Assembly: GCF_004015795.1 (NCBI RefSeq)
Contig: NZ_ML137218.1
Span: 124,001 to 188,000 of the forward strand
Length of the DNA stretch: 64,000 nucleotides
Direction: 5' to 3'
From: Falsirhodobacter deserti
Lineage (GTDB): Bacteria; Pseudomonadota; Alphaproteobacteria; Rhodobacterales; Rhodobacteraceae
In this document: positions 801 through 27,623 of the stretch, in pieces
Layout: the number at the start of each line of letters is the position of its first letter
How positions within the stretch are numbered: the first letter of the stretch is position 1
Made by a program: the position numbers and the translations under genes
The notes under the pieces: generated by a model
What the model saw: the letters and a program-made list of their open reading frames with translations, nothing else
Database searches by the model: none
Told to the model about the DNA's origin: nothing

Positions 801-852
801 CCGGGGCGCCGCCGCTGGTGTAGCAGGCTGCCTTTCGCAACGGAGGTGATCC

Positions 853-1755
853 ATGGGACGCAAGCGCAAGGGCCGCGCGATTTCGGGCTGGCTGGTCGTG
901 GACAAGCCGGCAGGCATCACCTCGACTTCGGTCGTGAACAAGGTACGCTGGGCGCTGGGCGCGCAGAAGGCCGGCCATGCGGGCACGCTGGACCCTGCGG
1001 CAACGGGCGTTCTGGCCGTGGCGCTGGGCGAAGCGACCAAGACCGTTCCCTACATCACAGATGCCCTGAAATGCTATCGTTTCATGGTGCGGCTGGGTCA
1101 GGCGACGACGACCGACGATGCCGAGGGCACTGTCATCGCCGAATCTGCCGACCGCCCCACCGATGAGGCGATCGCAGCCGCACTGGCTGCCTTCCGGGGT
1201 GACATCATGCAGGTGCCGCCGCAGTTTTCCGCCGTGAAGGTGGAGGGCGAGCGCGCCTATGACATCGCCCGTGCGGGCGAAGAGATGGATCTGGCCGCCC
1301 GCCCGCTTTGGGTGGAAAGCCTGATCGTTCTGTCGCGCCCCGATGTCGACCATGTGGAGCTGGAGATGGTGGGCGGGAAGGGCGGCTAGGTCCGTTCCAT
1401 CGCGCGGGAGCTGGGGGCGGCGCTCGGGTGTCATGGGCCTGTGCAATGGCTGCGCCGCACATGGTCGGGCCCCTTCACCGCCGAGGAAGGCATCTCGATC
1501 GAGGAGATCGAGCGCCTGGCCCAGCAGCCGGAACTTGATGCCCACCTGAAGCCGCTGGAAATGGGGCTGGCCGATCTGCCGCAGCTTCAGGCCACGCCCG
1601 AAGGTGCGGCACGGCTGAAGAACGGCAACCCCGGCATGGTCATGACCGGCGCTGAATACGGCGACGAGGCATGGGCCTCTTACCAAGGGCGGGCGGTGGC
1701 CGTCGGCATCTACAAGGGCGGGGAGTTGCACCCGTCGCGCGTGTTCGTCGAATGA
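853..1755 (+). pseudogene. truB: tRNA pseudouridine-55 synthase TruB, interrupted by an in-frame amber codon
   Basis: TruB makes pseudouridine 55 in the T-loop of tRNAs. Codons 1-178 read as a normal N-terminal half, with the catalytic aspartate at residue 47 in [12 protein letters not shown]. Codon 179 (1387-1389) is TAG, and the same frame then continues without a break to 1755 with the expected C-terminal half ([18 protein letters not shown], a PUA-like end KNGNPG). In the family this position is the tyrosine of the KGxYxR motif, so one base change from TAC or TAT explains the stop. The start has a strong Shine-Dalgarno, GGAGGTGATCC at 842-852. Read through, the product would be 300 residues, normal for the family. 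It is a recent pseudogene, a sequencing error, or a suppressed stop. Confidence 0.88.
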
Positions 1756-2270
1756 TCCAGCGCACGCATGTGAAGGGGGATGCCCCCTCCACCGCCGTTT
1801 ATTCCGATTGCGAGCGGTATCGTTTCCTGCTGACCCGCACATGGGACGAAGGCGGGAAAAAGGCGCTGTTCATCATGCTGAACCCCTCGACGGCGACCGA
1901 ATACCAGAACGATCCCACCGTCGAGAGGTGCGAGCGCCGTGCCCGGGCGTTGGGCTTCGGTGCGTTCCGCGTCTGCAACATCTTCGCGTGGCGCGATACC
2001 GATCCCAAGAAGATGCGCGCTGCGCCCGAACCCGTGGGAGCGGGCAATGACGAGGCGATCGTGGACAGCGCCCATTGGGCCGATACCGTCGTCTGCGCAT
2101 GGGGCACGCATGGCGCCTTCCTGAACCGCGGCCCGCAGGTGGAAGCGCTGCTGCGCGCCACGGGGCTGCCGCTGTATCATCTGGGGTTGTCGAACGCGGG
2201 GCATCCCAAGCATCCGCTTTACATCGGCTATGCCGTTCAGCCGGTGCTGTGGACGCCAGCAACCATGTGA
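1752..2270 (+). CDS. DUF1643 domain-containing protein
   Basis: 172 residues matching the DUF1643 pattern: [18 protein letters not shown], then [18 protein letters not shown], a CAWG motif and a C-terminal GHPKHPLYI. The function of the family is not established. The ATG overlaps the truB stop as ATGA, so translation was probably coupled to truB. The amber codon in truB would strand ribosomes about 365 bases upstream and could lower expression of this gene. Its 3' end overlaps the convergent hemolysin III gene by 34 bases. Confidence 0.8.
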
Positions 2271-22411: not shown

Positions 22412-23421
22412 GACAGCATCCGGCGGTAGACGGCGATCAGCGCCTCGGCCTCATCCTCGATCCGGAAACCGTTTTCAACGCGGCTGCGGGCGGCTTCGGC
22501 CATTCGCGGCAAGGAGGGATCGTCCAGCATCTGCGCGATCGCTGCCCGCAGGGCGGGCAGATCGTCGGGCGGAACAAGAAGGCCTGCCTCCGGCCCCACC
22601 AGTTCCTCGAACGCGCCTACGCGGGTGGCGACCACCGGAACGCCGCAGGCCATCGCCTCCAGCGGTGTCAGGCCGAAGCCTTCCCACCGCTGCGGGGCGA
22701 CATAAAGATCCAGTGCGGCATACCAGTCGGGCATCCGGTCCACGCTCACTTCGGGCTTGAACAGGATGCGCGCTTCAAGACCGGCGGCGGCGACGCGCGC
22801 CTTCAGATCGTCAAGAAAAGGGCGGTCCTTGTCCACAGCCCGCCCCATGACGATGGCCGTTCCCGCGCGTGCAGGCAGCAGGTCGATCATCGCGTCGACG
22901 AAATGATCCGTCCCCTTCGAGGCGCGGATGCGCCCGAAGCAGCCGATCAGCGGGCCTTGGGGCAGGCCCAGGCGCCCATGCAGGGCCGCCTTGTCGGCCG
23001 GACGGAAGGTGGCGGTGTCGATGCCGTGCAGGATCACGTCGGCCTCCCGCTCCAGATAGGCGGCACCCTTGGCCGAGGTGGCCACAACCCCGTCCATCTG
23101 CCTGATCAGCCACTTCGTCCAGCCGCTGTGGCTGCGCTGCGAGGCAGAGGTGAACAGCAGCCGGAACCTGCGCCGCAGCAGCCGCGCCAGGATCAGGCCC
23201 AGCAACATCTCTGTGTTTCGGCGGGCATGCCAGACGCGCCAGCGGTCGCGCGGAAGGGTTGCAGCCCGCCACAGCGGAACATGCGGCACACCGGCAGGCA
23301 AGCCCGGGCCAGTAGCCACGATGCCGATGCTGCGGGCCTGTACCGGCACCAGCCGTGCGATGGTGGCCGTGACGCCCGACAGGCGCCGCTTCAGGTTGGG
23401 GGCGATGACCAGAATCTCCAT
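22408..23421 (-). CDS. Glycosyltransferase family 4 protein
   Basis: 337 residues, GT-B fold. The N-terminal domain begins ILVIAPNLKRRLSGVTATI. The C-terminal donor domain has GCFGRIRASKGTDHFVDAMI and the family E-x7-E region in WEGFGLTPLEAMACGVPVVA. It transfers a sugar from an activated donor, but the specific donor cannot be read. It is translationally coupled (ATGA) to the GT29 gene downstream. Confidence 0.87.
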   Translation of the reverse strand: MEILVIAPNLKRRLSGVTATIARLVPVQARSIGIVATGPGLPAGVPHVPLWRAATLPRDRWRVWHARRNTEMLLGLILARLLRRRFRLLFTSASQRSHSGWTKWLIRQMDGVVATSAKGAAYLEREADVILHGIDTATFRPADKAALHGRLGLPQGPLIGCFGRIRASKGTDHFVDAMIDLLPARAGTAIVMGRAVDKDRPFLDDLKARVAAAGLEARILFKPEVSVDRMPDWYAALDLYVAPQRWEGFGLTPLEAMACGVPVVATRVGAFEELVGPEAGLLVPPDDLPALRAAIAQMLDDPSLPRMAEAARSRVENGFRIEDEAEALIAVYRRMLS

Positions 23422-23442
23422 GCGCCCTGCCTAGATTGTCGT

Positions 23443-23712
23443 TCAGTCGAACACCAGCTTGGCGATGACCAGCACGATCGCGGCCCCGATCAGTGCCACC
23501 AGTGCCACGGCAACCAGCCCGCCAGCCGCCAGCAGGCTGAGGCCAAGAAGGCCAAGCACCACCGGCACGGCCACAGCCGCGATGATGCCTGTCACGATGT
23601 AACGTGCGCGGTTGCCGCCTGCGACTTTCGACGCGATCCAGCCTGCCAGCGCGCCGATGATGACCGTCAGAACCAGTGCGGCCCAGCCGATGCCGTGAAG
23701 AACGTCTTCCAT
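23443..23712 (-). CDS. Small YeaQ-like membrane protein
   Basis: 89 residues, almost all hydrophobic. The first half (VLTVIIGALAGWIASKVAGG) resembles the YeaQ/YmgE transglycosylase-associated motif. The second half holds two more Ala/Val/Leu-rich helices. The function is unknown. It is 21 bases upstream of the GT4 gene on the same strand and may be in its transcript. Confidence 0.7.
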   Translation of the reverse strand: MEDVLHGIGWAALVLTVIIGALAGWIASKVAGGNRARYIVTGIIAAVAVPVVLGLLGLSLLAAGGLVAVALVALIGAAIVLVIAKLVFD

Positions 23713-23823
23713 TGGAGTCCTCGTTCATTTCGCTTCCGGGATGAACATAGGGTGAGGCGCGAAGAAATCCGCTTTCCTTGTTGCCGCAGGCGGTTAACTT
23801 CGGTGCAAAGAGTGAGGTGGAAG

Positions 23824-25434
23824 ATGCGGGATTGGTGGCGCGGATCGGTGACGTATCAGATCTATCCCCGTTCGTTCCAAGATTCGAACGGCGACGGGAT
23901 CGGGGATCTGCCGGGGATCACGCGGCGGCTGCCGCATGTTGCCTCGCTTGGGGTGGATGCGATCTGGCTGTCGCCGTTCTTCCCCTCGCCCATGCTGGAC
24001 ATGGGGTATGACGTTTCGGATTATCGCGGCGTGCATCCCGATTTCGGCACCCTTGCCGATTTCGACAAGATGCTGCGCGTGGCGCATGATCTGGGCCTGA
24101 AGGTCATCATCGATCAGGTTCTCAGCCATTGCGCGATCACGCATCCGCTTTTCGCGGAAAGCCGCCGCGACCGCACCAATGCCAAGGCCGACTGGTTCAT
24201 CTGGGCCGATCCGAGGCCCGATGGCACCCCGCCCAACAACTGGCTTTCAGTGTTCGGCGGCCCCGCATGGACATGGGATGCCGGCCGCCGCCAGTTCTAC
24301 ATGCACCACTTCCTGGCCGGACAGCCAACCTTCAACTTCCACAATCCCGCGGTGCAGGAATACTTCCTTGATGTGCTGCGCTTCTGGCTGGACCGGGGGG
24401 TGGACGGGTTCCGGCTGGATACCGTGAACTACTATTTCCACGATGTCAGGCTGCGGTCGAATCCCGCGCTGCCGATGGCGCGGCCCCCCATCAACCCTTA
24501 TGACATGCAGGACCAGATCCACACCAAGACGCAGCCCGAAAATATCGGCTGGCTGGAGAAGATGCGCGCGCTGACCGACAGCTATCCCGACCGCATGATG
24601 GTGGGCGAGGTTGGCGACGCCCTGCGTGGGATCGAGGTGATGGGCAAATACACCAAGGGCGAAAAGCGCCTGCACATGGCCTATTCGTTCGAGATGCTGG
24701 GCGATGCCCATTCCGCCCGCTTCTTCCGCAAGACCGTGGAAAGCTTCTTTGCCGGTGCGCCCGACGGCTGGCCCTGCTGGGCGTTTTCGAACCACGATGT
24801 GCCGCGCCATGCGGGCCGGTGGACGGGGCGCGGCAGGATCGAGGATGTGGCCAAGCAGTCGGCAGCGCTGCTGCTCAGTCTCGAAGGGTCGATCTGCCTT
24901 TATCAGGGGGAGGAACTGGGCCAGACCGATACGGAGCTGGAGTATCACGAGCTGACCGACCCCAAGGGCCTGCGTTTCTGGCCGGATGAAAAGGGCCGCG
25001 ACGGATGCCGGACGCCGATGGTCTGGGATGAAAGCCGTCACGGCGGTTTCACCACCGGCACGCCCTGGCTGCCGGTGAAGCCGCCGCAGGCTGCTCGCCA
25101 CGTTGCCGCACAGGAGGCGCGTCGCGATTCCGTGCTGCACGCCTATCGCGACATCCTTGCCTTCCGGCGGGCGCAAAAGGTGTTGCGGCGCGGGCAGACG
25201 CGGTTTCTTGACCTGCCAGAGCCGATCCTGGCTTTCATCCGCTGGCTGGGAAAGGAGGAGATGTTGTGCATCTTCAACCTCGGCCACGAAGCCGTCACCC
25301 TTCAAATCGAAGGCGTGGAGGGTAGCGTCGGGCCCGATCATCACGCCGAACTGGACGTGACGGAATTGCGGCTTGGCCCCAACGGCTATGCCTGGATGCA
25401 TGTGGGGGCGGATCTGGCGTTGCGCGTCCGCTGA
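23824..25434 (+). CDS. GH13 alpha-glucosidase
   Basis: 536 residues, no signal peptide, so cytoplasmic. The start is MRDWWRGSVTYQIYPRSF, the usual beginning for oligo-glucosidases. The catalytic residues are nucleophile Asp199 (GFRLDTVN), acid/base Glu262 (VGEVGD) and Asp325 (SNHDVPRH). The C-terminal beta domain follows residue 440. It releases glucose from alpha-linked oligosaccharides. The linkage and substrate cannot be fixed from sequence. The frame stays open far upstream, but only the ATG at 23824, with GAGGTGG before it, fits the family. Confidence 0.93.
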   Translation: MRDWWRGSVTYQIYPRSFQDSNGDGIGDLPGITRRLPHVASLGVDAIWLSPFFPSPMLDMGYDVSDYRGVHPDFGTLADFDKMLRVAHDLGLKVIIDQVLSHCAITHPLFAESRRDRTNAKADWFIWADPRPDGTPPNNWLSVFGGPAWTWDAGRRQFYMHHFLAGQPTFNFHNPAVQEYFLDVLRFWLDRGVDGFRLDTVNYYFHDVRLRSNPALPMARPPINPYDMQDQIHTKTQPENIGWLEKMRALTDSYPDRMMVGEVGDALRGIEVMGKYTKGEKRLHMAYSFEMLGDAHSARFFRKTVESFFAGAPDGWPCWAFSNHDVPRHAGRWTGRGRIEDVAKQSAALLLSLEGSICLYQGEELGQTDTELEYHELTDPKGLRFWPDEKGRDGCRTPMVWDESRHGGFTTGTPWLPVKPPQAARHVAAQEARRDSVLHAYRDILAFRRAQKVLRRGQTRFLDLPEPILAFIRWLGKEEMLCIFNLGHEAVTLQIEGVEGSVGPDHHAELDVTELRLGPNGYAWMHVGADLALRVR

Positions 25435-25435
25435 T

Positions 25436-26041
25436 CTACCACATGGTTCGTGCGGCGCGTGCGGACCAGTCCGCGTCATAGGTGGCGCCATCGAAGGCGC
25501 CGTTCGTTGCATCGCGCAGCATGTCGCCAACGGTGGGCAGCCCGTCCGCATCCGGCCCGCGCGACCACAGGCCGGACCGCATCAGCGCGCGGGCGCACTG
25601 GCTGTAGACCTCCTCGATCCGGAACAGGATCACGCAGCGGGGCCGCAGATCGCCCCGTGCGAACCTTGCCCGCAAATCGTCATCCACCGTCAGCCGCGCC
25701 CGTGCGTTCACCCGCATCGCGTTGTTGGACCCGTGGACAAGGAAGATCAGGCTGCATCGCCCGTCGCGCACGATGTTGCGGAGGGAATCGACGCGGTCGT
25801 TGCCCTTCCAGTCCGGCATGGCCAGCGTTTGCGGATCAAGGATGCGCACCACGGGCCCGTCATCTCCGCGCGGGCTGCCATCGGTGCCTTCCGGCCCCAC
25901 CGTCGTCAGAACGCAGAAGCGGCTTCGATCGATAAAGGCGGCATAGGACGGCGTCAGCCGGTCCGTCACCTTCTTCTGCGCGGCATCGCCGGGTTTGCCG
26001 TAAACCTTTTGCAGATCGTCCAGCGTTTCGATGAAGGTCAT
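25436..26041 (-). CDS. PPOX-type FMN-dependent flavoprotein (MSMEG_1061-like)
   Basis: 201 residues. The split-barrel PPOX core is visible: ATG-proximal helix, FIDRSRFCVLTTVGPEGTDG, SPRGD, then LRNIVRDGRCSLIFLVHGS and RVNARARLTVD. The C-terminal CARALMRSGLW is typical of a subgroup annotated MSMEG_1061. The substrate is unknown. GGAGG precedes the ATG at 26041, which overlaps the plsC-like stop as ATGA. It ends the ftsE-ftsX-plsC run. Confidence 0.85.
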   Translation of the reverse strand: MTFIETLDDLQKVYGKPGDAAQKKVTDRLTPSYAAFIDRSRFCVLTTVGPEGTDGSPRGDDGPVVRILDPQTLAMPDWKGNDRVDSLRNIVRDGRCSLIFLVHGSNNAMRVNARARLTVDDDLRARFARGDLRPRCVILFRIEEVYSQCARALMRSGLWSRGPDADGLPTVGDMLRDATNGAFDGATYDADWSARAARTMW

Positions 26042-26724
26042 GTTTCCTCCGCAAGGCGGGCCGAGGCGGTTTCGATCCGGTCCTCCAGCGTGGCAAGAAA
26101 AACATCCGGGGCAAGGCCGGGGGCGATGGGGGGCAGAAACTCCACGATCGCAAGGCCGGAATGGCGGCGCAGCCCAAGCGGCCAAAGGTATCCCGCATTG
26201 GTGGCAACGGGGATGCAGGGCTGGCCCAGATGGGCGTAAAGCGCCGCCGCACCGTATCGGTAGGGTGCATCCTGCCCCGGCGGTACGCGCGTTCCTTGCG
26301 GATAGATCGCGATCTGCCCTTCGCCGCTGCCGGCGGCCTGCAACAGGTTCGCCACCGCCTCGCCCTTTTTGCCCCGCTGCACGGGAATGCAGCCAAGGCG
26401 GGCAACGTACCAGCCGAAGACGGGCATTCGCATCAGCTCGGCCTTCATGACGAAGCGGGGGCGGGGAAGGGCGGCAAAGATCAGGATCACATCCAGAAAG
26501 GACTGATGCTTGGCCGCCACCAGAACCGCGCCTTCGGGCGGCGTTCCGCGGATTTCGGTGCGCAGGCCCAGCATCCAGCGCGCCGTCCACCGAACCCAGG
26601 CGCACCACAGCTTGCAGGCCCGTACCGCCCCGTCGCGGGATAGAAGCGCCGCGGGCGCGAAGGCCAGACCCAGCACGCCCATTGCCAGATACATCTGCGC
26701 GGCAAAGAGGGCTGAACGTATCAT
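26038..26724 (-). CDS. 1-acyl-glycerol-3-phosphate acyltransferase family protein
   Basis: 228 residues. An N-terminal hydrophobic segment (MYLAMGVLGLAFAPAALL) anchors it to the inner membrane. The acyltransferase motifs are KHQSFLDVI (a variant HxxxxD), VMKAELMRMPVFGW and YPQGTRVPPG. It probably acylates lysophosphatidate. The start overlaps the ftsX stop as ATGA. Linkage with ftsEX ties envelope growth to division. Confidence 0.87.
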   Translation of the reverse strand: MIRSALFAAQMYLAMGVLGLAFAPAALLSRDGAVRACKLWCAWVRWTARWMLGLRTEIRGTPPEGAVLVAAKHQSFLDVILIFAALPRPRFVMKAELMRMPVFGWYVARLGCIPVQRGKKGEAVANLLQAAGSGEGQIAIYPQGTRVPPGQDAPYRYGAAALYAHLGQPCIPVATNAGYLWPLGLRRHSGLAIVEFLPPIAPGLAPDVFLATLEDRIETASARLAEET

Positions 26725-27623
26725 GTCATCTCTGCCAGTTTGCGGAAGGCGGCGGCGCGCGTGGCGGCAAAGGCGACGGCGGCACAAAGCGGCGGCAGAA
26801 GCCATGGCAGCAGCCAGCTTGCACCGGAAAAGCCAAGGCCCGTCAGAAACCCGCCCGCCGCCTGCGCCGAGGGCATGATCCAGATCGCAAGGATCGCTGC
26901 CAGAACGCCCGCGGCCGATCCCGACATCGTGCGCAGGGTGAACCGGCGCACGAAGGCCCGTGCGATGTAACCGTCCTGCGCCCCGATCTGCCGCAGCACC
27001 CGCAGCACCTGCGCGTTGGCGGCCAGCGAGGCATTGGCCGCCAGCGTGATCACCGCCCCCGTCGTGCCAAGGATCAACAGAAGCGAGCCCCAGCCCAGAA
27101 GGCGCAAACGGCTTGCGGCCACGGCCAGCGGCTGGCGCCAGCGGGCATGATCGTCAAGCACCGCGCCCGGTGCCTCGGCCTCAAGGCGTTGGCGCAGGCC
27201 TTCGGCATCAAATCCCGCGCCTTCCTCGGCAATCTCCACCAGTTGCGGAATGGGGAGGGAGCCGAGCGGCAGATCCGCCCCGAACCACGGGGTCAGAAGG
27301 GCACGCTCCTCCTCCTCGCTCAGGGCGCGGGCACTGGCGATACCGGGGGTGGCGTTCAGGATCGCCATGACCGTGTCCAGCTGGCCCTGCGCCTGTTCCG
27401 CCGGGGCGGAAATGCGGATGGTGGAGGTGCGGGCCAGCGCATCCGACCAGCGATCCGCCAGGCGCCCCGCCGCCAGCGAAAGTGACAGCGCGAAGACGGC
27501 AAGAAACGCCATCACTGCGGAGGTGAAGATGGCCAGCCATGCGCCGGTACCGGTCGGGGGGACCAGACGTTCGGCCCCCGGATCGGGACGGGTCAGATCG
27601 CGAAGAATGCCGCGGATATCCAT
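26721..27623 (-). CDS. ftsX: Cell division protein FtsX
   Basis: 300 residues, permease-like. The first transmembrane helix is near residues 30-50, then a periplasmic domain (about 55-170), then three helices (about 172-195, 225-250, 270-290). FtsX forms a complex with the FtsE ATPase that activates peptidoglycan hydrolases at the septum. It overlaps ftsE by one base (TGATG), so the ATG at 27623 is the start rather than the TTG at 27626. Confidence 0.9.
   Translation of the reverse strand: MDIRGILRDLTRPDPGAERLVPPTGTGAWLAIFTSAVMAFLAVFALSLSLAAGRLADRWSDALARTSTIRISAPAEQAQGQLDTVMAILNATPGIASARALSEEEERALLTPWFGADLPLGSLPIPQLVEIAEEGAGFDAEGLRQRLEAEAPGAVLDDHARWRQPLAVAASRLRLLGWGSLLLILGTTGAVITLAANASLAANAQVLRVLRQIGAQDGYIARAFVRRFTLRTMSGSAAGVLAAILAIWIMPSAQAAGGFLTGLGFSGASWLLPWLLPPLCAAVAFAATRAAAFRKLAEMT

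Follow-up and report, generated by a model that had tools for sequence, protein, structure and literature searches.

The window, the whole 64,000-nucleotide stretch of Falsirhodobacter deserti DNA analyzed here, carries near its beginning a truB reading frame that is interrupted by a stop codon and overlaps the gene downstream of it. The features of this locus are as follows.

842 to 852, plus strand: ribosome-binding site GGAGGTGATCC, directly 5' of the truB start, recognized from the sequence
853 to 1755, plus strand: truB frame of 301 codons including the terminal stop, broken at codon 179, recognized from the frame, domain matches, and alignment
1365 to 1445, plus strand: G-rich segment, 49% G and 73% G+C
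1372 to 1439, plus strand: patch with four private changes within 68 bases, first affected bases 1372, 1389, 1410, and 1439
1387 to 1389, plus strand: in-frame TAG at a tyrosine position that is invariant in 108 relatives
1390 to 1755, plus strand: downstream part of truB with the TruB_C_2 domain, frame unchanged
1752 to 2270, plus strand: DUF1643 gene, in ATGA overlap with the truB stop

A sequence-only reading of the window had reported an internal stop in truB at a conserved tyrosine, a strong ribosome-binding site, and an ATGA junction with the DUF1643 gene, and all of these are present. The TAG has 178 codons upstream and 121 downstream, and the terminal TGA lies at 1753 to 1755. Immediately 5' of the start codon is GGAGGTGATCC, which we take to be a match to the 3' end of 16S rRNA. 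The DUF1643 gene overlaps a tRNA modification gene. The part of truB before the TAG matches the Pfam family TruB_N (E 3e-46) and passes the cutoff of the NCBIfam TruB model (TIGR00431) by itself, and the part after the TAG matches TruB_C_2 (E 5.8e-12). Models are therefore matched over both the N- and the C-terminal parts of the protein; the frame is not continuous through the conserved tyrosine at 179, as that codon is TAG in the sequence. The 2.98-Mb genome holds a single TruB_N match, which is this gene, and so a second truB copy was rejected.

In an alignment with chain 1r3f_A, presumably the E. coli TruB enzyme, residue 177 of the chain pairs with residue 177 of the window protein and residue 180 with the first residue after the stop. 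Therefore, the TAG corresponds to position 179 of E. coli TruB. We take Tyr179 to be an active-site residue of that enzyme. The available part of PMC7912444 holds no passage on the role of this residue.

Next, we compared the gene with its relatives. Of 111 truB frames, 110 were aligned (L010 was dropped by a length filter), and 2 of these were the window's own gene, which left 108 others. None of the 108 has an internal stop, and the tyrosine is invariant among them. Similarly, in a survey of 61 genomes including this one, 60 matched the first 178 residues of truB, and in no case did the matching stretch contain a stop. The window departs from columns that are identical in all 108 at exactly four places: Cys174 to Gly, Tyr179 to stop, Asp186 to Glu, and His196 to Pro. 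All four fall within 23 codons (174 to 196), and none lies elsewhere in truB. The earlier description of both halves as undamaged is therefore wrong. Its proposal of one base change holds for the TAG itself, which fits T>G or C>G at 1389, but it does not cover the three neighboring missense changes, and so the lesion cannot be described as a single base change.

Because the 108 others include repeated genomes, we kept one copy of the window's gene and collapsed identical sequences, which gave 105 distinct sequences of 109. Among these, 92 have no departure from the near-invariant columns, and the window has four. In the more divergent L031 truB (62% identical), six such departures are scattered over residues 71 to 267. 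When four departures were placed at random on the 103 near-invariant columns, a span this short arose in 0.4% of placements. Outside the patch, there are only milder oddities: a residue at the variable column 225 that is rare or absent in other truB, and Leu264Met, which is private to the window among its congeners. The rest of the gene differs from that of congener G006 by 24 nonsynonymous and 80 synonymous codons and looks constrained, with divergence that appears ordinary and mostly synonymous. Since decay would scatter its changes, yet the remaining truB diverges ordinarily, the four changes look like the product of one event, be it a misreading or a mutation.

The substitutions are also alike in type. 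Codons 174, 186, and 196 are each uniform in all six congeners, whereas codon 179 reads TAT in five of them and TAC in the sixth. Relative to these, the changes are T>G at 1372, T>G (or C>G) at 1389, T>G at 1410, and A>C at 1439. Two further bases, 1377 and 1428, carry a G that is absent from the six congeners, and both are synonymous. Within codons 172 to 197, five of eight private bases are G, versus 2 of 30 in the remaining truB; the six congeners have no private G among 14 at these codons (Fisher p 0.002 for the G comparison). Of the twelve classes of private change in this genome, T>G is the least frequent (10 of 709), and T>G and A>C together account for 27 of 709.

To place this cluster in context, we examined three syntenic regions and their counterparts in the six congeners, some of whose contigs are short. 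An initial set of 49 genes and 12,816 columns was extended to 152 frames, which together provided 37,676 codon columns covered by four or more relatives. Where a column was uniform in the other genomes, we counted the residue changes that T>G or A>C could explain; there were 37 in this genome and 295 in the six congeners together. Four of them fell within 25 codons only once, in truB, and no other run in the seven genomes was longer than two. When 37 changes were drawn at random on 16,832 susceptible columns, a run of four arose in 1 of 20,000 draws (5e-5) and a run of three in 0.9%, with the caveat that these cluster tests were framed post hoc, after the cluster had been seen. When type was disregarded, clustered private changes were common in most of the seven genomes; what stands out here is therefore a single class of change at deeply invariant sites. 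Elsewhere in the regions of this genome that the survey covered, we found no second error cluster; the assembly is thus not generally bad, which counts against the error reading.

Two other observations concern an acyltransferase gene. The gene at 22903 to 25434 of the window and the acyltransferase gene at 26041 to 26805 are 0.6 kb apart here (a gap of about 25434 to 26041). In four of the six congeners, the same pair is separated by roughly 57 to 198 kb, and in the other two, it lies on different contigs. This spacing could have arisen through a deletion specific to this lineage, through insertions in the congeners, or by rearrangement. Separately, the acyltransferase match of one congener (G004:C1:1251066-1251791) contains one in-frame TAG, which may be real or an error.

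The truB patch lies in an unusual base composition. The G level of the 81-base segment at 1365 to 1445, counted as G or C, is reached by 0.18% of the 81-mers in the window, and the same segment is 37 to 41% G in the congeners, although part of the excess is produced by the four changes themselves. We asked whether a hairpin was the cause and rejected it, as the segment folds as single-stranded DNA no better than its shuffles (z +0.95 to +1.41).

The sequence-only reading had left the stop as recent, erroneous, or suppressed. Error is the best supported of these three, because the TAG is one of several tightly clustered substitutions of the same type, all at residues that are otherwise invariant. 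A recent loss is possible and, if it took place, was most likely a one-event cluster; suppression leaves the three other changes unexplained. Judging from these comparisons, we think it probable that the TAG and its three missense neighbors stem from base-call or consensus errors clustered at this spot and that truB is intact in the cell. Wrong base calls at a G-rich, hard-to-sequence spot would have been carried into the assembly consensus, and the organism would most likely have an ordinary truB and normal pseudouridine 55. On a two-dye instrument, a lost green channel would cause T to be read as G and A as C, and one cause could then account for all four changes. The literature on sequencing errors is partly consistent with this. 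According to the available part of PMC3334598, A/C and G/T swaps dominate the errors of Illumina HiSeq, the miscall is often G, and GGG or CGG lies upstream. In PMC8002175, as excerpted, an early study is cited for a strong T-to-G preference, and G is given as the unlabeled base in two-dye chemistry.

We infer a sequencing or consensus step as the origin of the cluster with several caveats. The changes are private, of an error-typical class, tightly clustered, and at otherwise invariant sites, but base-level runs of three weaken the error reading. When columns containing N were excluded, runs of three private T>G or A>C changes within 70 bases were also seen in congeners G003 (75 such positions), G004 (58), and G006 (41); under the strict rule that all six congeners be alike, three of the four truB changes qualify. 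It is also weakened by the unexceptional folding of the segment. Likewise, the patch lies well away from either end of the 2.29-Mb contig, and consensus errors are rare in well-covered isolate assemblies. Finally, the later survey of Illumina instruments in the available part of PMC8002175 has no clear dye signature, and in the one MiSeq data set of PMC4381044, as excerpted, the main error of A is A to C and the main error of T is T to C, which also counts against this account. Should the error reading be correct, clustered same-type substitutions at invariant residues would flag a false pseudogene without recourse to reads.

The main rival to an error is a genuine mutation, which we regard as somewhat unlikely. 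Here, one very recent multibase event, such as an error-prone polymerase or a repair patch, made all four changes and inactivated truB. The ordinary, mostly synonymous divergence of the remaining gene gives the cluster the look of one event, and the short runs of three such changes in congeners are consistent with this. Moreover, the available part of PMC10969862 describes E. coli truB as nonessential under most conditions, although it also reports that truB loss costs fitness in E. coli coculture. The pattern itself is harder to reconcile with this rival, since a single polymerase pass with one kind of mispair should not yield three T>G changes plus an A>C when all are read on the same strand. 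We found no template copy for the segment. Gene conversion was rejected, as a 91-base segment matches well only itself, the next matches being 29 bases at 86% and 52 positions at 75%. A genome-wide A:T-to-C:G mutator, which is of the mutT type, was rejected as well because of the low share of that class among the private changes noted above. In full, this rival asks that a single-event shower of T>G and A>C substitutions in one gene deprived a natural, free-living alphaproteobacterium of both TruB and pseudouridine 55, possibly lowering expression of the coupled DUF1643 gene as well, and we hold it to be doubtful to the same degree. If real, the locus would provide a natural TruB-less strain and the record of a one-event mutation cluster.

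It is very unlikely that truB is a young pseudogene that recently acquired a simple nonsense mutation and then decayed neutrally. A stop together with missense changes at conserved residues would fit such a history, but decay should scatter, and the departures are packed more tightly than nearly all random placements. Relaxed substitution along the whole gene was not seen, as departures from invariant columns are confined to codons 174 to 196 and the differences outside are mostly synonymous.

Still less probable is translation of the TAG, by an amber-suppressor tRNA or by readthrough, to make full-length TruB. The frame does run on intact past the TAG, and the available part of PMC7918605 proposes that bacteria read through some in-frame stops. 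However, suppression does not account for the three missense changes, and the stop occurs in none of the 108 other truB. Among the 44 tRNAs found in the genome, none has a CTA anticodon. tRNA-Tyr is not among the 44 either, and it was not recovered by family, pattern, DNA query, or fetched loci. The same patterns and query found none in the congeners tested, and so this miss reflects the queries more than the genome. tRNA-Ile (GAT) and tRNA-Ala (TGC) are likewise missing from the 44. A search for small-subunit rRNA found none in any of the seven genomes, and this search was positive in only 9 of 14 controls, too few for its outcome to point to a short-read assembly. Missing stretches of rRNA operons may explain the absence of tRNA-Ile (GAT) and tRNA-Ala (TGC), but not that of tRNA-Tyr. 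Reassignment of TAG was rejected because TAG ends 13 of 68 homology-supported frames near truB, a set that may hold spurious antisense frames. In a comparison of read-through tails, downstream and antisense frames matched too.

Least credible of all is that truB now encodes two products, the downstream one starting at GTG 1441; an open reading frame from that GTG is present and the available part of PMC10969862 separates a chaperone role of TruB from catalysis, but residues 179 to 196 would be in neither product and no relative has an internal stop.

An error cluster of the kind we favor has precedents. In the survey of interrupted genes of Mycobacterium smegmatis, a significant proportion were judged to be sequencing errors (PMC1852416, as excerpted). 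The truB case is alike in that a gene looks broken in a deposited genome and is possibly intact in the organism, and unlike in that it is a cluster of substitutions recognized from comparison with congeners alone. It resembles the local Illumina miscalls of PMC3334598, as far as the available part describes them, in its regional packing, in A/C and G/T swaps being the commonest, and in G-rich sequence upstream. In that study, reads were measured, whereas the truB patch is known from the consensus. Finally, like the stops for which readthrough has been proposed in the available part of PMC7918605, the truB stop lies inside an otherwise constrained gene; those proposals rest on conservation, whereas the truB stop is found in one genome only and is accompanied by clustered missense changes.
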